Shown here: positions 1 through 26,860 of the stretch, piece by piece
Position numbering within the stretch: the first letter of the stretch is position 1
How the letters are laid out: each line of letters opens with the position of its first letter
Assembly (NCBI GenBank): GCA_014730235.1
Contig: WJIO01000166.1
Location: 1-32,185 of the forward strand
Reading direction: 5' to 3'
Length of the DNA stretch: 32,185 nucleotides
From: Candidatus Poribacteria bacterium
Lineage (GTDB): Bacteria > Poribacteria > DTPJ01 > WJIO01
Notes under the pieces: model-generated
Told to the model about the DNA's origin: nothing
Database searches by the model: none
Seen by the model: the letters and a program-made list of their open reading frames with translations, nothing else
Translations under genes and position numbers: made by a program

Positions 1-395
1 GTAGTGAGGTATCCCTTTATGGTTCTGCCAGATTTCATCTCAAGCCGGTTATTATTACTGCCTTTATAAAGGACACCATAAAATCAGAAAGCGACGTAAT
101 TCGGGAATATTTGGTAACCAATAATCTCTTCCATAACAGGTTGAGTGGCTCAATATCCGCCATATATCCATTGTTTGCTGATACTTTAATTCTGAATGTA
201 AATACCAGCACCCTTTTTTATTTTATGGACGGAGTTAAATCAAAAAACTTTTACCTTGAGGCCGGAGGTAGTTTTTTTATTACTAATGGCTTGGCTTTAA
301 GTATTTTATCAGGTTTTATCACAGGAGATATGGATTCTGGTGATACGGATATATCGGGTTTCAATTTTGGTTTAAAGGTGACCTATGGCTTTTAG
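1..395 (+). CDS. C-terminal part of a probable outer-membrane beta-barrel protein (5' truncated)
   Basis: The frame is open from the first complete codon at position 3, so the gene begins upstream of the window; the in-frame GTG at 111 is unlikely to be the true start. The visible 130 residues consist of alternating hydrophobic/polar strands of about ten residues separated by short Gly/Asp/Asn-rich turns (for example a GDMDSGDTD turn), and the protein ends in the strand FGLKVTYGF. A terminal aromatic residue closing an amphipathic strand is the usual barrel-assembly signal of outer-membrane proteins. No enzymatic motif is visible. It overlaps the next gene by 11 bp, indicating an operon with the cohesin-like lipoprotein and the giant PKD protein, so a role in their export or surface display is possible but unproven. 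Confidence 0.6.
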   Translation, partial: SEVSLYGSARFHLKPVIITAFIKDTIKSESDVIREYLVTNNLFHNRLSGSISAIYPLFADTLILNVNTSTLFYFMDGVKSKNFYLEAGGSFFITNGLALSILSGFITGDMDSGDTDISGFNFGLKVTYGF

Positions 396-1206
396 AATCG
401 TTAATTTTATTATAATTATTTCAATTATATCTACCTTTGGATGCGGACAGGATAATCATATTCAGAGGAATACAGAGGATCAACACAGCATAAGTTTTCA
501 TCTATCCCCCGATACTCCAGCCCAAAATAATGTTACCGAGATAGAGCTAAAAATCACAGTGTCAGATGCAGAGCCTGAGTTTTTAAGAATAACAAATGTA
601 AACCCCGGTCAGCATACAGCGAGAACTTCTATCAGTGTCCCGGTTGAATCCAGTATAACCCTATCTGCTATCGCTTTTGATGGTATCTGCCCGGTGCTTA
701 GAGGAAATCTGGAGAATCTGGAAGTAAGTCCAGAGCAAAATTCACCCATAACAATTGTCCTGAATCCGGTGCAGGCAGTAATAGGCATCAGGTCAAATCA
801 ACAGCAAATAAGTCCCGGAGAAAACTGGGATGTGGAAATATATATTGAGGATGCTCCGAAATTGCTGGCTGTTACGATGGAGTTACAGTTTAACGAGCAG
901 TTGTTAACCCCTATTGAATCAATCACCGGGGGGGGGTTCGGATCAGATGCGATATTTCTTGAGGACAGCGGTTTTAACCGACGAGAGGAAAACATTTTAT
1001 CATTGGGCCTTGCCCGACCTTCAGGAAATGCTGGTGTCTGTGGATCAGGTGTTTTATTCAGGATTACTTTTGAAGCTCTGGTATCAGGAAACGCTTCTGT
1101 CAGAATCCTGAGAAATAATATGTTTACATTAACAACACCGGATTTTGAGCGTATAGATAACTCCCGTATAATAATCAGACCGGATATAAGCATAGAAATC
1201 AGATAG
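385..1206 (+). CDS. Lipoprotein with a C-terminal cohesin-like domain
   Basis: A 273-residue protein. The N-terminus has a hydrophobic stretch (about residues 5-18) ending in STFGC with Cys20, a plausible lipobox, so the mature protein should be lipid-anchored. Residues ~35-125 look like a beta-rich domain with no recognised family. Residues ~130-265 have the features of a cohesin domain: an opening strand, a segment resembling the cohesin pattern of a buried strand followed by a partly hydrophobic loop (AVTMELQFNEQLLTPI), and a GVLFRITFEAL strand near the end. Cohesins bind dockerin modules, and the next gene encodes a dockerin-like pair. The gene starts inside the last codons of the upstream barrel gene and ends 12 bp before the likely start of the next. 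A run of nine Gs encodes three glycines (residues 182-184) in the cohesin-like domain. The cohesin assignment is by pattern only. Confidence 0.65.
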   Translation: MAFRIVNFIIIISIISTFGCGQDNHIQRNTEDQHSISFHLSPDTPAQNNVTEIELKITVSDAEPEFLRITNVNPGQHTARTSISVPVESSITLSAIAFDGICPVLRGNLENLEVSPEQNSPITIVLNPVQAVIGIRSNQQQISPGENWDVEIYIEDAPKLLAVTMELQFNEQLLTPIESITGGGFGSDAIFLEDSGFNRREENILSLGLARPSGNAGVCGSGVLFRITFEALVSGNASVRILRNNMFTLTTPDFERIDNSRIIIRPDISIEIR

Positions 1207-1218
1207 GAAGTGTATGAT

Positions 1219-4200
1219 ATGATGAATACCACGAAAAAAGGCTTATTAATTCTGGTATTTATTCTGATGTTAATCTGGATACCAGGTAAATCGTATGCTC
1301 AAATCCTTCCTCCTATTGATTTTCCGCCTATTGATATAAGGTTATTACCCCCTGTTATAAAAAATATTTCTCCGAATTCAGGCCCTGTAAGTGGTGATAC
1401 CAAAGTTACAATAACAGGTCAGAGTTTCTTTGAGGGTGGATGGGTTTACATCGGTAATGTTGAAGCGGGTATAGTGGATTTCTCCTCCACAAGGCTTGTG
1501 GTTATCACACCGCCGGGAACTCAAGGCCCGGTTGATGTAATGGTTATAAATCCTGACAAGCAGTTCCATACTCTCCAAAACGGCTTTACATATCTGTCGC
1601 CGCCGTTGGTAGAAGCCGGGGATAATCAGAAAACAACTGAAGGTCAGATTGTTGAAATTGAGGTAAGTTTTACAGACAACCTTAACGATACCCACTCAGC
1701 CGTAATAGACTGGGGTGATGGAACAATATCCAGACCTGAAATAACATATCTGCCACCTGTAATTTTTGGTCGAATGTCCTTGACAATGGGGGGGGTAGAA
1801 GCAGAGCATGTATATCAGGATAACGGAAGTTATCGGGCTACTGTCCAGATCACTGATCAATATGGCGCAAGGGGAACTGACTCTTTGAGCATAAGTGTTA
1901 ATAACGCAGATCCCAACCTGCCTCGTTTCAGAAACCAGAGCGTTTCGGAAGGTTCACCCTTTGAATTCAGCTTTGAATTTACCGATCCCGGAATACAGGA
2001 CACCCACACCACAATCATTGATTGGGGTGACGGAATTATACAAACAGAAGAAAGGTCTTCGAATCCCATCCACGCAGAACATAATTATCCTGCTGATGAT
2101 GGTGAATATAAGGTCGAAATCACCGTAATTGATGATGATAAAGATTCTGATACCGCATCTTTTACCGTCTCGATATACAATGAAGATCCATATATTGAAC
2201 CCGTTGATAATGTAAAGCTTACCGAAGGGAACCCACTGCTTGATGTTAATGTTGCCTTCAGCGACCCTGGTACCCTTGATAAACATACAGCCTTAATTAA
2301 ATGGGGTGATGGTCAGGTAGATAACTTAAGATTAACCAGCAAACGTATTCAGGCTTCTCATAAATATCCCGGCGATAACGGTCAGTATATGGTTAATGTT
2401 ACCGTAAAAGATGATGATGGAGACGATTATACAAGGTCTTTTAACGTCACAGTCAGCAATGAACCTCCCGTAATGGCAGTAATACCAGATCAAGTAATTG
2501 ATGAAAGCGATACTGTGATAAGTTTCAACGTCGAATTTACCGATCCCGGTGAACTTGATAAACATATGGTTATTATTGAATGGGGCGATGGAACTCAAGA
2601 CGGTGTTGATCCAGCCTTAACCCCTGTTGAGGTTGATCATGTTTACCTGAATGAAGATGGTGAGTATAATATAACAGTTACAGTAGCCGATGATGATAAT
2701 GCCTTTGACATACAGACTTTAACGGTAACAGTTGAAAACACCGATCCTATCCTTGAACCTATTCCGGATCAGATAATCAACGAAGGCACGCCAGAAGTGG
2801 CCTTCGACGCTGTATTTCAGGATGCCGGTAAGCGGGATTTGCATATCGCCATAGTTGACTGGGGTGATGGGGAAAAGGACACAATACACCTTGCCCAAAG
2901 CCCTCTTTTTCTGGAACATATATATCCTGCCGATTATGGCACATATACAGCAAGTGTAACCATATCCGATGATGACGGTGGAGTCGATACCGAGAATTTC
3001 ACGGTAACGGTAAGAAACGAAAATCCTGCCGTCGAATCTGTAACAGATCAGGCAGTTCCAGAAGGCAATCCAAATGTAGTAATTAATATAGCCTTCACAG
3101 ACCCGGGAGAATTGGATAAACATACAGCACTTATAGACTGGGGCGACGGGAAGCAGGACACCATAACATCTGCTGTTAGTCCAATTCAGTTGAAGCATAC
3201 ATACCCCGGTGACAACGGTAAATACTTTGTAAATATTACAGTTACAGATGATGATGGAGGAAGCAATACAGTATCTTTTAACGTAACAGTAGATAACCAG
3301 AATCCCAAAATAGATTCTGTGGATGACATGGTAATTACAGAAGGTGAACCGACCATTGAATTGATGGTCGACTTTGCAGACCCCGGCAATCTGGATAGAC
3401 ATTCCGCAACAATAGATTGGGGGGATGGAAAACAGGATACTTATGGATCCGTTGTAAGTCCATTGGAAGCAGTACATGAATATCCCGGCGATGATGCCCA
3501 GTATAATGTAACAATCACAGTTACCGACGACGATCAGGGAGATGATACAAATTCTTTCATCGTTACTGTAAATAACGAAAATCCTGTGATTAATCCCGTA
3601 AGTAATCAGACTGTTTTCGAGGATAATCCGCTTGTATCACTCAAAGCCAGTTTTACCGATCCCGGTAAGCTGGACAAACATTCAGCAATAGTGGAATGGG
3701 GAGATGGTGAAACGGATGTTTTGGATTCAGCAATCAGCCCTATAGCTTTAGAGCATACATACACCGGTGATGATGGGTTATATACAGTTAATATAAGCTT
3801 GACGGATGATGACGGGGGAAATGATACAACATCTTTCAACGTAGAGGTTAATAATCAAAACCCTGAGATCATGCCAATTAGCAATTTAACCCTTATGGAG
3901 GGTGATCCCACCGCCGTATTAAATGTGGAATTTACGGATGCAGGTAAACTTGATACCCACAACGTAAACATAAGCTGGGGTGATGGAAATGAAGAAGCCT
4001 TTGAATCGGTTGAAAGCTCTCTGGAAGTCGTCCATGAATATCCCGGTGATGTTGGGAAATATGTTGTAAGTGTTACTGTTACCGATGATAATCAAGGCAG
4101 CGATACAGCGTCTTTCAACGCGACGGTAATTAATGAAAACCCCATACTTAAACCTCTAACAAATCAGACAGTTTCAGAAGGCAAGCCCGTTGTTACATTA

Positions 4201-7200
4201 AACGCGGTTTTTTCCGATCCCGGTCTGCTGGATGAGCATATCGCAACAATCGACTGGGATGATGGAAGCGAGGAAACTATTGATCCCGCTGTAAGTCCTG
4301 TTGAACTTACACATGCATACCCCGGTGATGATAACCAGTATACAGCAAATCTTATTATTAGGGATGATAACGGAGGAGAGGATTTAAAATCTTTTAATAT
4401 TACGGTGAATAATGAAGCACCGGTTATTGATGCTTTAGATGATGTGAATGTGCTGGAAGGTAAAACCATTGTGGATGTTTCCTTAACCTTCAGTGATCCC
4501 GGAATTCTTGACACCCATTCAGCAACTATTGATTGGGGAGATGATAATATAGAAATTATAGATCCTGCTACCAGTCCAGCAGAAATACAGCATACATATC
4601 CCAGAGGTGAAAATCAATATACAGTAAGCGTAGTAGTTCAGGATGATGATGGTATGGCTGCCACAGCGTCTTTCAGAGTCAACATAAGCAACGAAAATCC
4701 TGTATTAGCACCTTTAAGCGATCAGATTGTTAAAGAGAGTAACCCTGTAGTAAATGTTTCAGCATCGTTTACAGATCCGGGCACTACAGGTCTGCACAGC
4801 GCGGTAATAGATTGGGGAGACGGCAATATTGATAATATCGAATCAGCAGTAAGTCCAATTATCAGAGAGCATACATACATCGGTGACGACGGTAAATATA
4901 CGGTCAGCGTTACAGTATTTGACGATTCAGGTGGAAGTGATACAAAGTCATTTAATGTAACAGTGGAAAATGAAATTCCAGTTATCCCGGCTATAGGTGA
5001 TCAAAACTTAACTCAGGGTAATCCTGTTGTTGATTTAAACGTGGTATTCTCAGACCTCGGTGCTGTAGATCTGCACACAGCAAGCGTTGATTGGGGGGAT
5101 GGCGAAACTGAAACCATAGAACCTGCCGTAAGTCCTCTGGCTGTAAAGCATACATATGTCAGCAATGATGATGTATATAATGCAGTTATCAACGTTACAG
5201 ATGATGACGGTGGAAACATCCGGAGATCATTTGTCGTGACGGTTACAAATGAGCCGCCTGTCATAGAACCTATAGATAACTTCAGCGTTACTGAAGGAAA
5301 GCCGGTTGTTGATGTTAATGCAGTCTTTACAGACCCAGGAACTCTCGACACCCATACAGCTATCATAGACTGGGGTGATGGAAGCACTGACATGATCGAT
5401 CATGCCATCAGCCCTATTACAACAAGCCATAAATTTACAGGCGATGATGGACAGTATAACGCATCCGTTACAATTACAGATGATGCAGGTGAAACTTACA
5501 CAGAGACCTTTAAAGTCACAGTAACAAACGAAAATCCAGTTCTCTCGACTGTGAATAACCAGAACATAACAGAAGGCGATCCAACAGTAGAGATTTCAAC
5601 CGTTTATACAGATGCAGGAATAATGGACACACATACAACCATCATAGATTGGGGTGATGGCAACATCGAAACACTGGAAACAACCGACGGTGTTATAAAT
5701 GCCAGTCACACTTATCCCGGGGTCAGCGGCGTGTATAATGCAAGCGTTACAGTAAGCGACGATGACGGTGGATTAGTTAAGTCGGATTTCACCGTATCCG
5801 TATCAGGCGAAGCGCCTTTAATCGAAGCTGTAGACGATCATAGCGTTTCAGAAGCTGATCCCCATGTTGAGATAAGTTTTAGCTTTACCGATCCCGGAAC
5901 TCTCGATACACATAACGCCTATATTGACTGGGGAGATAATACAACGGACAGCATAGACAACATCATAAGTCCATTTTCTGCATTCCATACCTATCCAAAG
6001 GATGACGGCAGCTATAATGTAGTAATAACAGTTACTGACAACGACGGAAATACAGGTTCACAATCCTTTAACGTAATGGTCAACAATGCTGCACCAGTAA
6101 TAGATTTAGCGTTAGACCAGACCGTAAAACGAGGTGAAGCTCTGTCAATCAACATCGGCTTTTCCGATCCCGGTGTTCTGGACACCCATACTGCAACGAT
6201 TGAATGGGGTTATGATGATGTCAGTGATTCAGGGAATATTAGCGAATCCGATGGATCTGGTATTGTAACCGGAAGCCATCTATACGATCAAAGCGGTGTA
6301 TACAATGTATACGTTACTGTAGCTGACGATGATAACGGTAAGGATACAACAGCATTTACCGTTACAGTAGAAGCTGATCCACCGCCTGTTATAAACTCAA
6401 TCTCACCAGCAAGCGGCAGTGTAGACGGAGGAACACCCATTACAATAACAGGAAGCAATTTTCAGGAAGGCGTTACAGTTCTTGTTGGAGGAAATACAGC
6501 GGAAGACGTTGCGTTAATTTCTGAAACCCAGATCAAAGCCACTACACCCACAGGAGTGATAGGAAACGCTGAAATACTGGTTACCAATCCCAACGGTCTT
6601 TCATCATCCTTAACAGATCAGTTTACTTATATTGGGCATCTGGCGAAGCTTGAAATTACACCTGAAACAGCTACATTAGAATCGGGTCAAACGCTGCAAT
6701 TCACAGTTACAGGTCATGACAAGCAGGATTTACCTGTCTCTGTTGAAGCTACGGACTTAGACTGGACAATAGTTGACACAAGCGTGGGAAACGTTAATTC
6801 CCAGGGAGTATTTACGGCGGACAATTATGGGAATACAATAATAAGGGCTGCTTTTAAAAAAGATGTATCTATTTTTGCCGAAGCCTCTGTAAATGTACCT
6901 GATACGGATATGCCGGAAGTTTTGTCTGAAAGACTTTTCCCACATCTGGAAAATACAGATATACCCATTACATCCAGCATACAGATAAGCTTTACAGAAC
7001 CTATTGATCCGCAGAGCGTAGCCGGCAGTATAAGTCTTTCTGGTGATAATAACAGGGAAATAGATTTTGACGTTGACGTTTCGGAAGATACACTTATAAT
7101 TAATCCCATTGAATCTTTCAGAGACGAAGAGATCATAACCCTCTCAATTACAACAGATATACTGGACTTATACGGAAACCCCTTAAATTCTATATTTCAG

Positions 7201-7944
7201 GATACTTTCACCACAGGTGTTGGAGTCTGGCCCGGAGATACCAATAACGATGGCGAGGTGAATATTCTGGATATTTTACCCGTAAGCCGATACTGGCAGA
7301 TCAGCGGTAATCCTAGAGAAAACATTATAACTGTAAACACCAGAAATCCCTGGATTATTCAACCCACAGTATCTTGGAAACCGGATAATCAGGTAACTTA
7401 TGCCGATGCCAATGGTGATGGTGTTGTAGACGAAATAGATATTATTCCTATCGCTCTTAACTGGAAACTTTCCCATCAGCCGAATAACCTTACAGCACCT
7501 GATAAGTCATTAGAAAGCGACATAAACCATGAGCAGTTGATGAAGTTTTATATGATTTTAATATCCATGCCATCAGATATTGATGGTGTTAAAGAGCTAA
7601 AGGAATCTATCCTGAATACTCTTCATAAAATAAAGGATTTATACATCCCTGAAAAAAACAATCTTCTGCAAAATTACCCCAATCCATTTAACCCCGAAAC
7701 CTGGATACCCTATCAGTTGGCTGAAAATGAAAATGTCATTATTGAGATATACAACTCAACAGGTCAGCATGTCAGGACATTAGACCTGGGATATAAACCA
7801 GCAGGTTACTATATAAGTAAAAAAGAGTCTGCCTGTTGGGATGGTAAAAATAATAAGGGTGAAAAGGTTGGAAGCGGCGTCTATTTCTATACTATAAAAG
7901 CTGGTAGATATGCAGCCATCAATAAGATGATCTTAATGGAGTAA
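1219..7944 (+). CDS. Giant secreted multi-PKD protein with TIG, Ig-like, dockerin-like and C-terminal sorting-type domains
   Basis: I chose ATG 1219 because AGGAAG at 1205-1210 lies eight bases upstream; the in-frame GTG at 1210 overlaps that site. The product is 2241 residues. Order: signal peptide (~1-27, ending SYA/Q); TIG/IPT domain (~44-128); 17 tandem PKD domains (~129-1718), each with a core near WGDG and a TVxDDDGG-like strand; second TIG (~1720-1806); Big_2-type Ig-like domain (~1808-1892); SbsA-type Ig-like domain (~1898-2001); two calcium-loop motifs, GDTNNDGEVN (~2006) and ADANGDGVVD (~2062), forming a dockerin-like pair; a linker; and a 93-residue C-terminal domain starting LLQNYPNPFNPETW, of the FlgD-Ig/type A sorting style. 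No catalytic motif is visible. It is probably a long calcium-stabilised surface stalk or adhesin, possibly docked on the neighbouring cohesin-like lipoprotein. Confidence 0.85.
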   Translation: MMNTTKKGLLILVFILMLIWIPGKSYAQILPPIDFPPIDIRLLPPVIKNISPNSGPVSGDTKVTITGQSFFEGGWVYIGNVEAGIVDFSSTRLVVITPPGTQGPVDVMVINPDKQFHTLQNGFTYLSPPLVEAGDNQKTTEGQIVEIEVSFTDNLNDTHSAVIDWGDGTISRPEITYLPPVIFGRMSLTMGGVEAEHVYQDNGSYRATVQITDQYGARGTDSLSISVNNADPNLPRFRNQSVSEGSPFEFSFEFTDPGIQDTHTTIIDWGDGIIQTEERSSNPIHAEHNYPADDGEYKVEITVIDDDKDSDTASFTVSIYNEDPYIEPVDNVKLTEGNPLLDVNVAFSDPGTLDKHTALIKWGDGQVDNLRLTSKRIQASHKYPGDNGQYMVNVTVKDDDGDDYTRSFNVTVSNEPPVMAVIPDQVIDESDTVISFNVEFTDPGELDKHMVIIEWGDGTQDGVDPALTPVEVDHVYLNEDGEYNITVTVADDDNAFDIQTLTVTVENTDPILEPIPDQIINEGTPEVAFDAVFQDAGKRDLHIAIVDWGDGEKDTIHLAQSPLFLEHIYPADYGTYTASVTISDDDGGVDTENFTVTVRNENPAVESVTDQAVPEGNPNVVINIAFTDPGELDKHTALIDWGDGKQDTITSAVSPIQLKHTYPGDNGKYFVNITVTDDDGGSNTVSFNVTVDNQNPKIDSVDDMVITEGEPTIELMVDFADPGNLDRHSATIDWGDGKQDTYGSVVSPLEAVHEYPGDDAQYNVTITVTDDDQGDDTNSFIVTVNNENPVINPVSNQTVFEDNPLVSLKASFTDPGKLDKHSAIVEWGDGETDVLDSAISPIALEHTYTGDDGLYTVNISLTDDDGGNDTTSFNVEVNNQNPEIMPISNLTLMEGDPTAVLNVEFTDAGKLDTHNVNISWGDGNEEAFESVESSLEVVHEYPGDVGKYVVSVTVTDDNQGSDTASFNATVINENPILKPLTNQTVSEGKPVVTLNAVFSDPGLLDEHIATIDWDDGSEETIDPAVSPVELTHAYPGDDNQYTANLIIRDDNGGEDLKSFNITVNNEAPVIDALDDVNVLEGKTIVDVSLTFSDPGILDTHSATIDWGDDNIEIIDPATSPAEIQHTYPRGENQYTVSVVVQDDDGMAATASFRVNISNENPVLAPLSDQIVKESNPVVNVSASFTDPGTTGLHSAVIDWGDGNIDNIESAVSPIIREHTYIGDDGKYTVSVTVFDDSGGSDTKSFNVTVENEIPVIPAIGDQNLTQGNPVVDLNVVFSDLGAVDLHTASVDWGDGETETIEPAVSPLAVKHTYVSNDDVYNAVINVTDDDGGNIRRSFVVTVTNEPPVIEPIDNFSVTEGKPVVDVNAVFTDPGTLDTHTAIIDWGDGSTDMIDHAISPITTSHKFTGDDGQYNASVTITDDAGETYTETFKVTVTNENPVLSTVNNQNITEGDPTVEISTVYTDAGIMDTHTTIIDWGDGNIETLETTDGVINASHTYPGVSGVYNASVTVSDDDGGLVKSDFTVSVSGEAPLIEAVDDHSVSEADPHVEISFSFTDPGTLDTHNAYIDWGDNTTDSIDNIISPFSAFHTYPKDDGSYNVVITVTDNDGNTGSQSFNVMVNNAAPVIDLALDQTVKRGEALSINIGFSDPGVLDTHTATIEWGYDDVSDSGNISESDGSGIVTGSHLYDQSGVYNVYVTVADDDNGKDTTAFTVTVEADPPPVINSISPASGSVDGGTPITITGSNFQEGVTVLVGGNTAEDVALISETQIKATTPTGVIGNAEILVTNPNGLSSSLTDQFTYIGHLAKLEITPETATLESGQTLQFTVTGHDKQDLPVSVEATDLDWTIVDTSVGNVNSQGVFTADNYGNTIIRAAFKKDVSIFAEASVNVPDTDMPEVLSERLFPHLENTDIPITSSIQISFTEPIDPQSVAGSISLSGDNNREIDFDVDVSEDTLIINPIESFRDEEIITLSITTDILDLYGNPLNSIFQDTFTTGVGVWPGDTNNDGEVNILDILPVSRYWQISGNPRENIITVNTRNPWIIQPTVSWKPDNQVTYADANGDGVVDEIDIIPIALNWKLSHQPNNLTAPDKSLESDINHEQLMKFYMILISMPSDIDGVKELKESILNTLHKIKDLYIPEKNNLLQNYPNPFNPETWIPYQLAENENVIIEIYNSTGQHVRTLDLGYKPAGYYISKKESACWDGKNNKGEKVGSGVYFYTIKAGRYAAINKMILME
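1600..6372 (+). repeat. Tandem array of 17 PKD-encoding repeats, 279-bp period
   Basis: The Trp codon of the WGDG core falls at 1711, then 2023, 2302, 2581, 2860, 3139, 3418, 3697, 3976, 4255, 4534, 4813, 5092, 5371, 5650, 5929 and 6205. The fourteen steps from 2023 to 5929 are all exactly 279 bp (93 codons). The first step is 312 bp because PKD 1 has an 11-residue insertion, and the last is 276 bp. Units differ in sequence but share DPGxLDTHTAxIDWGDG, SPxxxxHTYPGDDGxY and VTVTDDDGG segments. Cores 10 (WDDG), 11 (WGDD), 16 (WGDN) and 17 (WGYD) have changed residues. The repeat is a protein-level tandem duplication, not a CRISPR or satellite. Confidence 0.95.
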
Positions 7945-13494: not shown

Positions 13495-14610
13495 ATGACA
13501 TCTCAGGAGCGTTTTCTGGGTATAATGGAATATAAGCCTGTGGATAGAGTTCCCAACTGGGAACTGGGAGTCTGGCCCCAGACCCGGGAAAGATGGCTCA
13601 GGGAAGGACTTCCCAAAGATAAATTTACATGGAACTGGTTTTTCAGGGAAGATGCCATAGACCTGGATTATCGAGAGTTTATACCAATACACATGGGCAT
13701 GAAGCCAGCTTTTGAATCAAAGGTTATAGAAGAAACAGAGCGATATCAGATAATCCAGCATGCTGATGGACGGATAACAAAAGCCCTGAAAGAAGGTTCT
13801 ATTGGTGGGGCAAGAATGTCTATGGATCAATATCTGCGTTTTCCTGTGGAAAATCTGGATGATTTCCGGGAATTGAAAAAACGCTATGATCCAACCGATC
13901 CCGAAAGATACCCACAAAACTGGCAAGATAAAATTCCCCAATGGAATAACCGGGAGCATGTTCTGATCCCAGGGCTTAACTGCTGTACCGGTTTTTACGG
14001 TGTGGCAAGGAACTGGGTAGGAACGGAAAACCTTTCCCTGGCTTTTTATGATCAACCAAAGCTCTGTGAGGAGATGTTTGAATTTATTGCCGATTTTGTA
14101 ATTGCGGTAACTACTCCCATATTAAAAGAGGTAAAGTTTGACTACTTCAACTTTTTTGAAGACCTGGCCTTTAAATCCGCGCCCCTTGTAGGCCCGAAGT
14201 CCTTCAGAAAATTCATTTTTCCCCATTACAAACGCACCATAGAACACCTTAAAAAACACGGGGTGCGATATATAAGTCTGGATAGTGACGGTAATACGGA
14301 AGTACTTATTCCTATGTTTCTGGAAATGGGTGTGGATGCCCACTGGCCCTTTGAACGGGCGGCTGATATGGATCCTATTCGTATAAAAAAGCAATACGGA
14401 AAACAACTGCGTGTATGGGGCGGTGTGGATAAAAGGGAAATAGCTAAAGGTAAAAAATATATTGACGGTGTTATGCGCGAACTTGCTCCATTGATTGAAA
14501 ATGGAGGATTTATACCGACTCTGGATCATACCTTCCCTCCAGATATATCCTGGGACAACTTCTGTTATTACATTGAGCAGAAAATGCGCCTGTTGGAAGG
14601 TAAAATTTAG
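13495..14610 (+). CDS. Uroporphyrinogen-decarboxylase-like protein (URO-D superfamily), first of two
   Basis: A 371-residue soluble protein with the TIM-barrel URO-D pattern: an N-terminal RFLGIMEYKPVDRVPNWE opening, a central GPKSFRKFIFPHYKRTIEHL helix region, the strand YISLDSDGN, and near the end LRVWGGVDKR and GGFIPTLDHTFPPDISWDNF. These match the methylcobamide:CoM methyltransferase (MtaA/CmuA) branch rather than HemE: the HemE N-terminal arginine signature RPVWxMRQAGR is absent. LDHTFPPDIS, with its His, is where zinc-type MtaA/CmuA members hold a metal ligand, but the usual HxCG is not seen, so methyl transfer is uncertain. GGGAG at 13484-13488 sets the start. A 21-bp gap separates it from a second URO-D gene, so they form a pair. 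Function unknown; not a haem gene. Confidence 0.8.
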   Translation: MTSQERFLGIMEYKPVDRVPNWELGVWPQTRERWLREGLPKDKFTWNWFFREDAIDLDYREFIPIHMGMKPAFESKVIEETERYQIIQHADGRITKALKEGSIGGARMSMDQYLRFPVENLDDFRELKKRYDPTDPERYPQNWQDKIPQWNNREHVLIPGLNCCTGFYGVARNWVGTENLSLAFYDQPKLCEEMFEFIADFVIAVTTPILKEVKFDYFNFFEDLAFKSAPLVGPKSFRKFIFPHYKRTIEHLKKHGVRYISLDSDGNTEVLIPMFLEMGVDAHWPFERAADMDPIRIKKQYGKQLRVWGGVDKREIAKGKKYIDGVMRELAPLIENGGFIPTLDHTFPPDISWDNFCYYIEQKMRLLEGKI

Positions 14611-14631
14611 AATTAAAGGGAATATTATATT

Positions 14632-15822
14632 ATGAATCATTATCAGAGAATGATAAATACGATTGCCGGAGAATATACAGACCGGATTCCCTGGGCTCCC
14701 CGTATGGATTTGTGGTATATAGCAAATCGTTCTCGTGGTACGCTACCTTCTGAATTTGTAAGGTTAAACACTGTTGAAATATCAGAACTGCTGGATGTTG
14801 CATGTCATGCTGTCAGGGCGGATTATACACTTCCCGGTGCCCGCGATCTCTCCCTGCGGGGATTGGGAATGGACAATCATCCGGATTATCCATTTCGTAT
14901 AGAACTCAAGGGTTTGCCAGTAAAATTCAGCGATGACGGCGTGGATATGAAAACCCTGATCTCTACCTCAAAAGGTGAAATATTTACCCATTTGCATAGA
15001 AATCCCGATATGACAAAAGCAGGTATATCAATTCCCTTTGTAAAATCCTACGCCATAGAAAATCCTGATGATATACAGGCTTTAATGCGGGTGTTTCAGC
15101 ATCTTGAGGTAATTCCAAATCCTGAGGGTTATGCCGATTTCCACAAGCGTATAGGTCAACAAGGAGTCGCTGTGGCCAGCGGTCCTATAGCAGCATCACC
15201 CATGCATCTTATCCTGCATGAACTTATGCCTATGGATAGATTCTTTTATACATACGCAGACAATCGAAATATTCTATGCCAGCTTGCCAGCAGCATGGAG
15301 GAATTCTTCCATAAGCTTCTGGATGTCCTTGTTAGTTCTGATGCTGAGGTGGTATTCTGGGGAGGTAATTATGACCAGGATTTGACCTGGCCCACTTTCT
15401 TTCAAAAAGAGATCACTCCCTGGCTCAGTAAAGTAAGTGAAAGATTGCATTCGGTTGGTAAGTATCTGTTGACCCATACAGATGGCGAAAATAAAGCTCT
15501 TATGCCATATTATAAAGATTGTGGTTTTGATGTGGCTGAATCAGTATGTCCTGCACCAATGACTCAATGCAGTCTAAAAGAAATCCGACATGGTATGGGG
15601 GAAAATATTACTGTCTGGGGCGGTATACCTTCTGTGGCACTTTTGGAAGGCTCTATGGACGAAGCCGAATTTGATGATTATCTGGATAAAATGTTTTCTG
15701 AAATTGGCAGTGGTAGGCGTCTGATTCTAGGAGTATCGGATAACGTTCCTCCGGATGCAAAGCTGAAGAGGTTTAAAAAAATAAAAGAACAGATTGAGGA
15801 TTTTGGTTCTGTATCAAATTAA
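14632..15822 (+). CDS. Uroporphyrinogen-decarboxylase-like protein, second of two
   Basis: A 396-residue member of the same superfamily as its neighbour, but clearly divergent from it. The opening HYQRMINTIAGEYTDRIPWAPR is the family start; the middle has VFWGGNYDQDLTWPTFFQKEI, followed by LSKVSERLHSVGKYLLTHTDGE (a helix, then a strand with His/Asp) and DVAESVCPAPMTQCSLKEI. The end has ITVWGGIPSVALLEGSM and RLILGVSDNVPPDAKLKR, the family's last barrel strands. THTDGE and SVCP could supply metal ligands, as in corrinoid-dependent methyltransferases, but no corrinoid-binding protein or activator is nearby. AAAGGGAA lies nine bases before the ATG. Its stop codon overlaps that of the convergent methyltransferase gene, so transcripts from the two strands must meet here. 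Confidence 0.78.
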   Translation: MNHYQRMINTIAGEYTDRIPWAPRMDLWYIANRSRGTLPSEFVRLNTVEISELLDVACHAVRADYTLPGARDLSLRGLGMDNHPDYPFRIELKGLPVKFSDDGVDMKTLISTSKGEIFTHLHRNPDMTKAGISIPFVKSYAIENPDDIQALMRVFQHLEVIPNPEGYADFHKRIGQQGVAVASGPIAASPMHLILHELMPMDRFFYTYADNRNILCQLASSMEEFFHKLLDVLVSSDAEVVFWGGNYDQDLTWPTFFQKEITPWLSKVSERLHSVGKYLLTHTDGENKALMPYYKDCGFDVAESVCPAPMTQCSLKEIRHGMGENITVWGGIPSVALLEGSMDEAEFDDYLDKMFSEIGSGRRLILGVSDNVPPDAKLKRFKKIKEQIEDFGSVSN

Positions 15823-17195: not shown

Positions 17196-20100
17196 TCACC
17201 TCACCAAAATTGAAAAAGGGGCTTTTGCGCCTCTGCAAATTGGGATTATATAATCATCTCCCGGTTTTACAAGATACTTATAACCCGATGTATAATCTTC
17301 AGGATTCCAGAAGCCCTTTATAATTGTAATATCACCGGTAGAGATATATCCGTCCCCGATTTCTTTTATAGTGTAGCTTGTATCCATGGGCTGATTACCG
17401 TAAAAATGTATAACCTTACCTTTGACTTCTGCATCTGCTGGCAGCGGCGGATCAATATATATCTTATGGTTTTCAGGATCGCTGGCATCAACTGCCACAA
17501 CTTTACCCCTGTAGGCTTCCGAATCGTAATTTAGCATTACACGACCAAAACGCAGCATTTTACCTTCTACCATACGCATCAATCTTGGATTATTGTTAAT
17601 TGTTCTTACCAATAAAAACCGACCGTTAAACTCAATATTATTTTCAACTCTTACATGGGTTGGCTCTTCACAGCTTATTATATAATCCGCTCTACCATTT
17701 TCCAGTTCCACCATTAAAGCGATAACAGAATCAGGATCAACATCATGTTCAACAGAAAGGCTTCGGACACTCTTTATAAAAGGATTTCTATCATAAGGTT
17801 CAAGCACAGATACAAACTGGCTTTCCATTTCATCTCCAAGACGGCTCTGTATGAAATAGCGAAGCCTTCTTGGATTACCGGCCTTATTCTGAGGGGGATC
17901 TCCGCTGGCCAGGGCTACCTCATCACATGGGGTCAGGCAGTGAATACGTAAATGAGGCTCTTTGCCTTCTTCTATACGTCCTCTTTTGTCTTCGGCTTTC
18001 CAGTCAACCGTAAAATATGATTCAACCGAATCAGCCGATCTCTCTACATCATACAGATACGAAAATCCGCTTTGTGCGTGGCCTTGGGCTCCAAATTCTA
18101 CATCATTCCCTGCAAATGTACCGACTTGCTGTTTAACCATCTGGATACCATCAATAACATTAGTTTCAGCCGGGCCGTGATACGAAAGACGATGGTTTTT
18201 ACCACCACGAGCGCGGAAAATATCCACAACATAGCTGTCCTCGTCGGATATATCCACAAGGGCAACTATACGCCGGTAAGATTCGATTCCCTCATATGCT
18301 CTTTCGGATGAAACATCTATCACCCTGAGGGGAGGGTCAACGTCAAACAGATTAACCATACCGCCAGGACTGTAGCCCGACTGGGTATCATTTACCAGTA
18401 GAGTATTATGGCTTATGGTATTCGATGTCCATGCATAACGTTTCGGCCATGCGCTTGCGTATTCAGGATAGCCAAGATCCGGAAGCATATCAATATTTTT
18501 GGCATATAAGCCGATATTCAGGCAGTCTCGGTGAGAATGACCTTTGCCATAACCATAATGTATCCATAAAGCTCTACCGTTTTCCTTTTTCTCCGTTTGC
18601 AAAACGGCCTGACCATATCTACCCATGTGTTCGGATTTTATCTCAAAATCCCCGGAATCTTTTGCTGCTTGTTCAACTTCTTCCCCTAAGTCCTCTGGAT
18701 TTTCCATATATATGTCACCGGGCAGGCGTAAAAGATCGGGATCACCTTCGGCAAAATGCCATGCCAGAACAGCCATTTCTGGCTCTTTGTATAACCTGTA
18801 ACCCCTTAGAAATAAATAAGCCGAACCTGTGCGCCCCCAGCTTCCGGTAGAGCCAGCATCTCCGATAGGGGGTATAACACTATCAAGGCAGTTCAACCGC
18901 GATTCCACCAGAAAACATTGCTTTAGTTTTGGATAATCCTTCACCATGTCATGTTTTTCATATTGGGTATATGAAGCCAGAATTTCAGCCAGTTCAATAA
19001 AGCTGCGAGACCATATCAAACCGTAATTGCCACATTCAGCCCCCATACCATCCCGATCAAGCCCTTCTACCATCACCCATGGAACAGGATCTCTTCTTCC
19101 CCCATGTTCCCCTGGAAAGCCCGGATCAAACAACCAGTCCAGCCAATCCTCAACTTCCTCTTCATCGCTTAAAGCAATAGCACATACGGCCAGGCATGTT
19201 TGAGTCATGCCTGTATTTCCCAGTATCCGCCTGTCTTTGACGGATTTAAGTGCTTCTTTCAACAGGTTATTCTCTATATGCTGGCATATATCCCCTATGC
19301 TGTTTTTTTTACCAAGCTCATATTTTTCTGACTTTTGCATGCAAAAATTTACCAGTTCCCCATCATCCAGAATAGCGTCATAGATATAATCATAGGCATA
19401 GGCCATCATTGTAGCAAGCCGGGTTTCCCATATACAACCCTCGATCCTTCCTTTACCTGAACCGCCGTGAGAATGTTCAAAACCCAATTTATGAAGCGGC
19501 ATAAAATCCATATCCGGATAGACATCGGCTATTCTATCCAGCAGAATTGCTGCTTTATGAGCATATACCTTATCACTGGTCATAGTATAGGCCCGGGCTA
19601 ATGCTGTTAAGCCTGTATAGATAGTTCGCCAGTGTCCCCACTGGGTATAATAAGCTATCGCTCGGTGTTTATCGCCGTTTTCATCTATCATCCCGTAACC
19701 ATCATCCACATATATTTTATGAAGGGGATCCGAAGGATCAGGATGTTCTGCGTTAAATAAAAGCGACCTATCTCCCAATTCTCTCCGAAACATTCCATGT
19801 TTGTCCAAGGCCGTTTTATAAAAAGCATAAAAATCATTTTTTGGATATACTTCGCCGCAGTTTGGACATTCGATCTTCCAGGGCCTGTCCCAAAAATCTG
19901 TCTTCCAGGGATAATTACCATAGGGTACGATGCCGTCTTTACAGTTAGGACAGCCGTATTCTTTGTTTGTATGAATATCCCGGGGCAGTTCCTGAGACGT
20001 TATCATATCCCATAATTCATCATCACTCATTTCAACCCAGTATCTAGCCTGGATCAACATCCTATCAGCAATTCGTTTAGCCCAGTTATAGCGTCCTGTG

Positions 20101-20219
20101 TTTTTCTGGGCATTTTCCCGCATATCTGATGTTATAAACCGGCTGGATTTTCTGGAACATCCGGTGAATCCTGCAAGAACAATTATTAATATCGTTTTCA
20201 GGAAATTTGATATATTCAT
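17196..20219 (-). CDS. Large heparinase II/III-type polysaccharide lyase lipoprotein
   Basis: A 1007-residue exported protein. Residues 1-21 form a signal peptide ending FTGC (Cys21), a somewhat unusual lipobox. Residues 90-121 have two CxxC pairs (Cys90, 93, 118, 121), probably a zinc knuckle. About 135-520 is helix-rich, in the manner of an alpha/alpha toroid (repeated Trp/Tyr-rich helices; EHSHGG, NTGMTQ, GDAGSTGSWG). From ~530 the protein is beta-rich, opening with GYGKGHSHRDCLNIGLYAK (His561, His563, Asp565) and DMLPDLGYP, the signature start of the heparinase II/III-like sandwich. Known relatives cleave uronic-acid polysaccharides by beta-elimination; the substrate here is unknown. It is followed 4 bp later by the MazG-like gene and preceded 45 bp upstream by the PP-loop gene. 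A purine-rich site precedes the ATG. Confidence 0.8.
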   Translation of the reverse strand: MNISNFLKTILIIVLAGFTGCSRKSSRFITSDMRENAQKNTGRYNWAKRIADRMLIQARYWVEMSDDELWDMITSQELPRDIHTNKEYGCPNCKDGIVPYGNYPWKTDFWDRPWKIECPNCGEVYPKNDFYAFYKTALDKHGMFRRELGDRSLLFNAEHPDPSDPLHKIYVDDGYGMIDENGDKHRAIAYYTQWGHWRTIYTGLTALARAYTMTSDKVYAHKAAILLDRIADVYPDMDFMPLHKLGFEHSHGGSGKGRIEGCIWETRLATMMAYAYDYIYDAILDDGELVNFCMQKSEKYELGKKNSIGDICQHIENNLLKEALKSVKDRRILGNTGMTQTCLAVCAIALSDEEEVEDWLDWLFDPGFPGEHGGRRDPVPWVMVEGLDRDGMGAECGNYGLIWSRSFIELAEILASYTQYEKHDMVKDYPKLKQCFLVESRLNCLDSVIPPIGDAGSTGSWGRTGSAYLFLRGYRLYKEPEMAVLAWHFAEGDPDLLRLPGDIYMENPEDLGEEVEQAAKDSGDFEIKSEHMGRYGQAVLQTEKKENGRALWIHYGYGKGHSHRDCLNIGLYAKNIDMLPDLGYPEYASAWPKRYAWTSNTISHNTLLVNDTQSGYSPGGMVNLFDVDPPLRVIDVSSERAYEGIESYRRIVALVDISDEDSYVVDIFRARGGKNHRLSYHGPAETNVIDGIQMVKQQVGTFAGNDVEFGAQGHAQSGFSYLYDVERSADSVESYFTVDWKAEDKRGRIEEGKEPHLRIHCLTPCDEVALASGDPPQNKAGNPRRLRYFIQSRLGDEMESQFVSVLEPYDRNPFIKSVRSLSVEHDVDPDSVIALMVELENGRADYIISCEEPTHVRVENNIEFNGRFLLVRTINNNPRLMRMVEGKMLRFGRVMLNYDSEAYRGKVVAVDASDPENHKIYIDPPLPADAEVKGKVIHFYGNQPMDTSYTIKEIGDGYISTGDITIIKGFWNPEDYTSGYKYLVKPGDDYIIPICRGAKAPFSILVR

Positions 20220-24611: not shown

Positions 24612-26822
24612 TTATAATCCTTGCTCTGTTCTTGAAATAACATCGTTCTGCAAGGCAGGAGATAATCGGACAAAGTAATCACTGAAGCCGCCCACCCGAA
24701 CAATGAGATTGGTATACTGTTCCGGTTTCTCTTTTGCTTTCAGCAAAGTTTCTTTGTCTACGACATTTACCTGTATCTGCTGACCTCCCTGCCGGAAGTA
24801 TGTCTGGAACATAGATATAATCTTATCCCTGTTTTCTCTGACAATATCAGGTGTAAATTTAACGTTAAGGACATAAGCACTCTGGGCCAGTACCTGGGGA
24901 ACTTTGGCTACTGAACTAAAGACGGCTGTTGGGCCTTTTACATCCCGGCCCTGGGTTGGGCCTACTGAATCGGCTAAAGGTGTATAGGCCTTTCTTCCAT
25001 CGGGAGTCGCACCAACCTTTGAACCAAAAGATACAGCTCTGGTGAATACGATAGAACCGCCGCCAAAAATTCCACCCCGCCATGTCCTGTATGTGTTGAG
25101 ATGGTTATAAAAGTGGTCTATAATTTTTGCCGCAAATTCGTCCACATAGTCTTCATCGTTACCAAATTTGGGAGATTCCTTTATCAGCATTTGCCGGAAT
25201 GATTCATCGGGGAAGTTGTTATCTATTGCATCCAGAAGCTCTTCCATGTCTATACGCTTTTTCTCAAACACCAGCTTTTTTATTACCGCTAGAGAATCGG
25301 CCGTGTTTGCTATCCCCTGAGTTAATATCTGGCCGTGATTATACCTGGGACCGCCCCTTTTGAAATCAACCCCTTTTTCGATGCAGTCTTTGATTAAAAG
25401 AGATCTGATTAAGTTTGGGGAAGTTTCACCATGGGCTTTCTGGAAGATATTTGTTGCATCAGTAAGACGCTTGCTGAAGTATTCCACCTGGGCTTGGTAT
25501 GCTTCCCACAACTGGTCAAAGCTGTCAAAACCCCTGGGATCACCAGTATGAGGGCCTATTTGCTTTTCTATGTTGGGGTCAAAACCATCGTGCAGGGCCA
25601 GTTCCAGACACTTGGCCAAGTTCATCTCACCATCTTCCAAACCCATGTGTGATTTACCCTGAATATCCACCTGACTGCATCCATTCATGGCATAATCCCT
25701 GGCATCTTCCTGAGTAATTCCATAGCGCATCATAGCCGGTATAAGTGTTTCATCGTTGTAAAGAGCAGGCATACCAACGCCGGTTTCTATGACTTCCAGA
25801 GCTTTTTCCCATACTTCCGGTGGGGAGTTTTTATGAAGCCTTAAAGACAGGTTAGGAGCTACTTTCTGGATACGTCTTGTGGCTTCCATGGCCATAAAGG
25901 TCAGGTCGTTTGTTCCGTCTGTTCCGTCGAGACGGATTCCGCTTATACAGACATTCCATGAGCGAGTATCATTAAATCTTTTCCACAGGTGATCCATCCA
26001 TTTCTGGGCTTCATCCATATTAATTTTTCCTGAATCCAGATCACGCTGATAGTATGGATACATATACTGGTCAAAGCGTCCCGGTGAATCTGTTCCATCA
26101 AGAAGATGTATGAACCAGAAAGTCTGCAAGGCTTCCGGGAATGATCGCGCTCCGTTTTTGGGTGTATGGGAACATCGCTGGGAAATGTCTTTGAGCTGAC
26201 TTTGCCTGTGTTCGTCGGTTTCATCTTCTGCCATTTCAGCCGCATGTTTCGCATAATTTTCAGCAAAGGCATCTATGCCATCACAGACTATGAGTAAAGC
26301 TTTTCTGAAAGCATGTTTTTCAGGGTCAGTTTCACTTTCGTTATAGTCGCGGATCGTTTTGCGTATGCCATCCGTCCCCTGGGCCAGAAGCTGGTCAAAA
26401 CCTAGTATTCCATGACCACCCCAGCCAGCCCAGTAAACGTTTTGACCACTCATGAAACGTTCATCCTCTGGATAGCTCATACGACTGCCGGGAGTCCACT
26501 TTTTCCAGTGGATAACCAATTCATCCAGGTGATCTGACCATTGGGGATATTCTCTTTTCAACTCCTCAGCTTTATCGCCGCTGTAGAAAATACCGGAACT
26601 GAAAGCAAATCCTGCAATTCCCCCGGATTTTATCCTTCCTACTATTTTATCATCAGATTCTATTATGGCAGGCATACTTGCCCAATACCAGCGTAAAGCG
26701 TTGGCCAGACGGACAGTATGATATTTTGATTCGCAGGACAGATAACCCCATGAAAACGGGCAAATTTCCCGCAGCAAATCCAGCCATTCAGCTTCTCTTA
26801 AATCTACAACCTCACTGATCAT
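24612..26822 (-). CDS. Glycyl radical enzyme of the pyruvate formate-lyase-like family
   Basis: ATG 26822 with GGGAG nine bases upstream is preferred to a TTG 27 bases earlier; the product is 736 residues, close to the usual 750-850. RVGGFSDYF (709-717) is the glycyl radical loop, with Gly712 as the radical site, and YAMNGCSQVDI carries the thiyl cysteine (Cys382). The C-terminal block (HLNTYRTWRGGIFGGGS, GATPDGR, YFRQGGQQIQVNV) is typical of the family. After the cysteine comes Ser-Gln, unlike the Cys-x-Glu of the dehydratases and lyases or the Cys-Cys of pyruvate formate-lyase, so the reaction is unknown. Activity needs a radical-SAM activase, and none is encoded in this window. It is the last gene of a minus-strand cluster with two Gfo/Idh/MocA enzymes and an aldo/keto reductase, which suggests a sugar- or polyol-derived substrate. 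Implies anaerobic operation. Confidence 0.88.
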   Translation of the reverse strand: MISEVVDLREAEWLDLLREICPFSWGYLSCESKYHTVRLANALRWYWASMPAIIESDDKIVGRIKSGGIAGFAFSSGIFYSGDKAEELKREYPQWSDHLDELVIHWKKWTPGSRMSYPEDERFMSGQNVYWAGWGGHGILGFDQLLAQGTDGIRKTIRDYNESETDPEKHAFRKALLIVCDGIDAFAENYAKHAAEMAEDETDEHRQSQLKDISQRCSHTPKNGARSFPEALQTFWFIHLLDGTDSPGRFDQYMYPYYQRDLDSGKINMDEAQKWMDHLWKRFNDTRSWNVCISGIRLDGTDGTNDLTFMAMEATRRIQKVAPNLSLRLHKNSPPEVWEKALEVIETGVGMPALYNDETLIPAMMRYGITQEDARDYAMNGCSQVDIQGKSHMGLEDGEMNLAKCLELALHDGFDPNIEKQIGPHTGDPRGFDSFDQLWEAYQAQVEYFSKRLTDATNIFQKAHGETSPNLIRSLLIKDCIEKGVDFKRGGPRYNHGQILTQGIANTADSLAVIKKLVFEKKRIDMEELLDAIDNNFPDESFRQMLIKESPKFGNDEDYVDEFAAKIIDHFYNHLNTYRTWRGGIFGGGSIVFTRAVSFGSKVGATPDGRKAYTPLADSVGPTQGRDVKGPTAVFSSVAKVPQVLAQSAYVLNVKFTPDIVRENRDKIISMFQTYFRQGGQQIQVNVVDKETLLKAKEKPEQYTNLIVRVGGFSDYFVRLSPALQNDVISRTEQGL

Positions 26823-26860
26823 GTATAAACACTCCCTTATTGTATGCAATTTTAATAAAG

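Follow-up and report, generated by a model that had tools for sequence, protein, structure and literature searches.

The window analysed here, 32,185 nucleotides of Candidatus Poribacteria bacterium (WJIO01000166.1), is the entire contig C88 of G000, a metagenome-assembled genome of 5.5 Mb in 451 contigs. It opens with three serial genes, which encode the end of an outer-membrane barrel-type protein, a lipoprotein with a cohesin domain, and a giant protein with a long array of PKD repeats, a dockerin and a C-terminal sorting tail of the type IX secretion system (T9SS). According to our analysis, the lipoprotein and the giant probably form a plug and socket by which T9SS cargo is tethered to the outer membrane, a reading to which we give roughly two chances in three. 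The original prediction had proposed a possible surface docking pair from domains and gene order, and this interpretation is supported by domain hidden Markov models, by predicted folds of the single chains and by ten conserved loci. Both reading frames were called correctly at that stage; they lie on one strand with 3 bases between them, and the lipoprotein gene, beginning at its ATG, shares 11 bases with the barrel fragment upstream, whose stop falls within them.

The cohesin lipoprotein and the W-insert dockerin

The cohesin-like domain first noticed in the lipoprotein is real. Residues 143-245 match the Pfam family Cohesin (PF00963) with 28.5 bits against a cut-off of 24.1, and a profile of 14 relatives retrieved only cohesins from the PDB, the best match (3e-17) being the type II adaptor cohesin ScaB. 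Confidence in the predicted model is moderate overall (72.6), with most of residues 130-250 well predicted. Residues 130-273 of this model align with the type II cohesin 4u3s_A with Z 14.0 and a root-mean-square deviation of 2.3 over 129 residues, and all 50 structural matches listed are cohesin entries, the solved non-cellulosomal cohesins 2xdh and 2vo8 among them. The same residues show the jelly-roll fold of cohesins in the predicted model. As for the membrane anchor that had been proposed, the cysteine of the lipobox is invariant in 14 members of the family, but the T-F-G-C motif departs from the usual leucine at position -3, and relatives of the protein have better lipoboxes.

In the giant, residues 2008-2078 match Dockerin_1 (PF00404) with 37.8 bits, over the Pfam cut-off of 22.9. 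The two calcium loops, DTNNDGEVNILD and DANGDGVVDEID, have aspartate or asparagine at ligand positions 1, 3, 5, 9 and 12, and this pattern is confined to these two sites within the 2244 residues, against an average of 0.02 occurrences per shuffled protein. They are the loops that the original prediction placed near residues 2006 and 2062, numbering from the ATG at 1222. Its claim of a dockerin-like spacing did not hold, as the loops are 56 residues apart in the giant, about 50 in the genome G023 and about 34 in the ordinary dockerins of G000. The giant's domain thus falls outside the usual, although not universal, description of a dockerin as a compact module of some 60 residues whose loops lie about 34 apart. 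Because of this spacing, and of a tryptophan-bearing insert between the two halves, it is classed as a dockerin variant, which we name the W-insert dockerin. The insert follows the pattern W..QP...W, in which one tryptophan never varies among 15 Poribacterial copies and hardly varies among 51 copies from several phyla; it may be a specificity element, and the solved dockerins matched here appear to lack it.

The predicted fold points in the same direction. The dockerin model has a predicted local distance difference test score (pLDDT) of 88.6 and a predicted template modelling score (pTM) of 0.81, and the 11 top-ranked structures in Foldseek are without exception type II dockerins, at weak E-values (0.14-1.8). 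A second structural aligner placed it best on 2y3n_B, the B. cellulosolvens type II dockerin (Z 6.1 over 59 residues), a less strong match than that of the cohesin (Z 14). When the PDB was searched with the dockerin profile, calmodulins ranked first because of the shared EF-hand loop, a result uninformative on partners. The idea that a long loop spacing means no dockerin was rejected on sequence, fold and conservation. The domains of the two proteins are thus independently nearest to type II, the class by which cellulosomes are attached to cells.

The sorting-type domain expected behind the dockerin is present: FlgD_ig (32.1 bits) and CHU_C (28.2 bits) exceed their cut-offs, Por_Secre_tail (26.0) lies just below 27, and our sorting-tail profile, which finds 45 such tails in G000, scores 165 bits on the giant. 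A Pfam scan found no enzymatic domain in the protein. The Big_5 domain next to the dockerin precedes it in G023 and G067 too. Translation of the giant likelier starts at the ATG at 1219 or 1222, which has an AGGAAG motif upstream, than at the GTG at 1210 used for the open reading frame in Table 1.

Table 1. Features of the three genes that open the window (positions in the window)
Feature	Position	Strand	Basis
Outer-membrane barrel-type protein, C-terminal 130 residues, cut by contig start	3-395	+	Overlap with contig C254 of G000
Cohesin lipoprotein, 273 residues, proposed socket	385-1206	+	Pfam Cohesin; family profile against PDB; model against type II cohesin
Signal sequence and lipobox-like TFG|C20	385-444	+	Sequence; Cys20 invariant in 14 homologues
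N-terminal beta-rich domain, residues 37-124	493-756	+	AlphaFold model, moderate confidence; no Pfam match
Cohesin domain, residues 129-273	769-1203	+	Pfam and predicted model
Giant dockerin-bearing PKD protein, 2244 residues, with signal peptide	1210-7944	+	Open reading frame, Pfam
PKD array (stalk), about 17 repeats	1600-6369	+	PKD_4, 17 stretches, E 6e-139
Second TIG domain, residues 1726-1807	6385-6630	+	Pfam TIG
Big_5 (PF13205), residues 1901-2002, immediately N-terminal of dockerin	6910-7215	+	Pfam
W-insert dockerin, residues 2008-2085, proposed plug	7231-7464	+	Pfam, model, Foldseek
Calcium loop 1, DTNNDGEVNILD, residues 2010-2021	7237-7272	+	Motif
Insert between dockerin halves, about residues 2036-2060, conserved Trp	7315-7389	+	Alignments
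Calcium loop 2, DANGDGVVDEID, residues 2066-2077	7405-7440	+	Motif
T9SS-type C-terminal sorting tail (NYPNPFNPETWIPYQL...)	7648-7941	+	FlgD_ig, CHU_C, Por_Secre_tail

Putative parts of the machinery for the export of such a protein are encoded in the genome. One SprA-like protein each was found in G000 (PF14349, 30.1 bits, in a frame of 2300 residues) and in five other Poribacteria, the copy of G023 scoring slightly below the curated cut-off; these six genomes also have PorV homologues. SprA is also present in the genomes of the loci L181, L182 and L188, described below. We propose that the giant would be exported by Sec and then, by means of its C-terminal tail, through a type IX-like translocon. 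The dockerin just before the tail would bind the cohesin of the lipoprotein encoded next to it, and the lipid of that lipoprotein would anchor it in the outer membrane; the barrel from the same operon probably assists. The PKD stalk would then be held at the cell by a calcium-dependent, non-covalent contact of type II kind and reach outward, where it may serve in adhesion or in a surface layer.

Recurrence, specificity and cassette partners

Among 84 Poribacterial genomes, the W-insert dockerin profile found 15 copies in seven genomes and a profile of the full-length lipoprotein about 16 copies; a four-row profile was needed for the latter, as the lipoprotein used as a single query retrieved mostly other cohesins. 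Six directly adjacent pairs were found in Poribacteria, namely that of the window and those of G023 (contig C57), G067 (C363) and G066 (C221, C332 and C32). The dockerin profile was also run against bacterial and archaeal genomes, where it picked up 80 loci, almost all of them in Bacteroidota and neighbouring phyla; the W-insert variant is spread through the FCB group. Four further pairs, in which the cohesin gene directly follows the dockerin gene, came from Marinimicrobia (L181 and L217), Krumholzibacteriia (L188) and an unclassified bacterium (L182), and the four cohesin proteins open with lipoprotein signals (LTSC, ISC, VTSC and LSGC). Hence, a gene for a W-insert dockerin and sorting tail directly adjoins a cohesin lipoprotein gene in ten loci. 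Moreover, 32 of the 80 loci combine the W-insert dockerin with a cohesin in one polypeptide.

The cargo attached to the dockerin differs from locus to locus: a PKD stalk in the window, a WD40 propeller in G023, G067 and G066, TIG and cadherin-like repeats in G066, and, outside Poribacteria, a laminin-G-like domain (L181) and a CotH kinase (L182). That the cargo varies while dockerin, tail and lipoprotein stay is how a plug and a socket would behave. The expectation that other genomes would keep the pair together is thus borne out in Poribacteria and other phyla, although in some genomes one of the two genes occurs without the other next to it.

The association is specific to this dockerin. The genomes compared carry 39-114 sorting-tail genes each, and in eight genomes the lipoprotein is adjacent to 6 of the 13 tail genes with a W-insert dockerin as against at most 4 of about 502 others (Fisher p 1.4e-8); three of these four encode a divergent dockerin-like domain and the fourth is cut by a contig end. 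The lipoprotein is found in six of seven genomes with a W-insert dockerin and in 4 of 77 without (p 3.5e-6), or, counted by genus, in 5 of 6 versus 3 of 15 (p 0.014); these adjacency and co-occurrence values are only partially corrected for shared descent. Distances among the ten dockerins correlate with those among the ten cohesins (r 0.87, falling to 0.76 once the near-duplicate G067 is left out). In G066, one pair resembles the corresponding pairs of other genomes more closely than it does the remaining pairs of G066; this co-divergence by pair rather than by species suggests that the pair travels together. All this is gene linkage, which does not in itself demonstrate binding.

A divergent dockerin-like domain, LLGDYDEDMDVDFDD...DFEDLATFLVMWNW, occurs at L087 (6662-6877), L158 (13990-14205) and L160 (2717-2932), in sorting-tail giants directly beside cohesin lipoproteins; the L087 copy is missed by Pfam. 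It may be a second type of plug. A divergent dockerin from tail genes of G057 and G061 was rejected as a W-insert member for its weak match (E 0.003, probability 10%) and counted as dockerin-like.

Regarding the barrel, the fragment in the window gave no Pfam match and no match among proteins of the compared loci, and its profile match to the barrels of related cassettes was weak (hhalign probability 4%). The barrel was instead identified by contig overlap: the last 23 bases of contig C254 of G000, read in reverse complement, are identical to the start of the window, and the reading frame continues. The first 250 residues, encoded on C254, match the cassette barrel profile at positions 16-251 of 381 (1.7e-27). 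In G066 the cassette runs from dockerin gene to cohesin lipoprotein, CsgG-like TPR lipoprotein and barrel; the nearest CsgG-like TPR lipoprotein gene in G000 is also on C254, 7 kb from the barrel gene and divergent. As the barrel family follows the cohesin lipoprotein in other cassettes, the barrel is likely an accessory component of the pair, judging from gene context. Its role as a third partner, as originally suggested, gains from its completion on C254 and from the recurrence of its family, and is plausible. Divergently upstream of the barrel gene, C254 carries a type VI secretion-like cluster with an IcmF N-terminal domain, VipA, VipB and CsgG-like lipoproteins (L257, 1032-12986).

Elsewhere in the window are a pyruvate-formate-lyase-like glycyl radical enzyme (24612-26849), and two tandem URO-D-like genes with a 1007-residue heparinase II/III-like protein (13495-15822 and 17196-20219).

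Weighing the alternatives

Several observations weigh against a dedicated mooring pair. The lipobox of the lipoprotein is non-ideal, and we infer the outward-facing position of this protein. Three of the ten paired cohesins fall below the Pfam cut-off, and the gene order of the window is reversed relative to the other nine pairs. The classical T9SS attaches its cargo after cleavage of the tail; as the cargo is already attached, a second anchor might be redundant. W-insert dockerins without an adjacent cohesin occur in G067 (C11), G023 (C65), G066 (C111 and C299) and G057 (C122). Conversely, four cohesin lipoproteins sit in a cassette with TPR lipoprotein and barrel and without an adjacent dockerin gene (L084 6864-9966, L155 6777-9876, L159 4645-8491 and L156 5476-9108). 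The cassettes in L084, L155 and L159 adjoin the same GHMP-kinase-like and ABC-transporter genes, and that of L156 (G063) is preceded by a truncated sorting-tail gene.

Such orphans would be expected if the giant's dockerin bound the cohesins of other exported proteins, the lipoprotein being one of several receptors in a larger adhesive matrix with no private pair. G000 encodes at least 17 cohesins and at least 17 dockerins, often within one protein (many in the order cohesin, dockerin, cohesin, tail), so that other partners are possible, and it has two W-insert dockerins for one full-length cohesin lipoprotein. However, the adjacency in ten loci is specific to W-insert dockerins and the genes co-diverge as pairs, which leaves this network an unlikely explanation, albeit the foremost of the competing ones. 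We consider it still less probable that the lipoprotein grips the dockerin on the periplasmic side and hands the giant to the translocon, in a transient contact related to export. The position of the dockerin close before the tail would suit such an escort, as would the barrel in the same operon and the CsgG-like TPR lipoprotein of related cassettes, which belongs to a class of periplasmic and outer-membrane assembly factors. Yet T9SS-type tails without a dockerin are far commoner than those with one, which argues against a general export role, and cohesin-dockerin contacts are long-lived as a rule. Finally, the cohesin could be no more than a generic beta-sandwich, with the dockerin serving as a calcium-stiffened spacer and the two placed side by side by the shared regulation of surface proteins. 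The modest cohesin similarity in three of the pairs, together with binding that we infer, leaves some room for this idea, but the best structural matches are to cohesins and dockerins, both of type II, and the association is specific and crosses phyla with altered cargo; we hold it to be very improbable. Mooring of the giant by the neighbouring lipoprotein remains the preferred reading.

Other proteins of these families were noted as well. A second PKD giant of G000, with an unusually long dockerin (about 75 residues) and a cohesin-like stretch, is encoded in L066 (6202-13361) and followed by a 220-residue cohesin-dockerin protein without a sorting tail. At least four proteins of G000 combine cohesin, dockerin and sorting tail in one chain, some with two cohesins (L065 2953-5808, L067 2-2854, L068 5395-8265 and L069 2-2833), and these could self-associate into polymers. 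At the locus L079 (3831-9055), a dockerin protein has as its neighbours a lipoprotein and a FlgD_ig-tailed C25 (gingipain-like) peptidase.

Relation to known systems

The closest parallel is the type II anchoring of cellulosomes (SdbA/OlpB-CipA of Clostridium thermocellum; ScaB of Acetivibrio cellulolyticus), to which the best structural matches of both modules belong by type and with which the pair would share the function of holding a long secreted protein at the cell. In contrast, the pair of the window belongs to a Gram-negative-type envelope, has a lipid anchor in place of an S-layer anchor and no X module, and its dockerin bears the tryptophan insert on a cargo with a T9SS tail and without glycan-degrading enzymes. 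The pair was rejected as a cellulosome, given the single cohesin of the lipoprotein and the lack of glycan-degrading enzymes; the "cellulosome-like" manner first suggested applies to the anchoring principle alone. Cohesins and dockerins outside cellulosomes, a setting shared by both modules here, include those of Archaeoglobus and of Clostridium perfringens glycoside hydrolases and are reportedly the subject of a 2009 review by Peer and colleagues; to our knowledge none of them are pairs of a lipoprotein-anchored receptor and a T9SS cargo.

A cellulosome-like complex of dockerin proteins and a cohesin protein with a T9SS-type C-terminal domain has been described in Candidatus Stygibacter, of the Cloacimonadota (PMC8542988). 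There, the cohesin scaffoldin has the T9SS tail and collects enzymes, whereas in the window the lipoprotein has the cohesin and the dockerin cargo has the tail. The giant shares its sorting tail, of type A kind, and the SprA and PorV homologues of its genome with type IX secretion and PorV/PorU attachment in Bacteroidota; unlike that system, it would add a cohesin-dockerin tether beside the usual attachment after export. The literature searched contained no paper that connects Poribacteria with dockerin, or cohesin domain with lipoprotein and T9SS, a weak negative since subscription papers lay outside it, and nowhere in it was the pairing of a cohesin lipoprotein with a W-insert dockerin protein exported by T9SS found described. 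Cohesin-dockerin pairs outside cellulosomes are known already, and the cohesin lipoprotein with its T9SS-tailed W-insert dockerin partner would be a novel form of them.

The pair may also be one case of a general docking system of the FCB group and its relatives, for which we see about even odds. Any T9SS cargo with a tryptophan-insert dockerin would plug into an outer-membrane cohesin lipoprotein encoded next to it, with a CsgG-like TPR lipoprotein and barrel as fixed partners in some lineages, as a swappable socket for surface display independent of the known T9SS attachment. Such a pair could double as a tool for protein display on diderm bacteria. If our reading is true, a W-insert dockerin and a neighbouring cohesin lipoprotein would give a rule for predicting partners in many unannotated genomes. 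It would extend anchoring by type II-like cohesin and dockerin to an envelope of Gram-negative type, where a lipid serves as the anchor, and would show by what means uncultured bacteria, most of them marine, may tether surface proteins of very large size.

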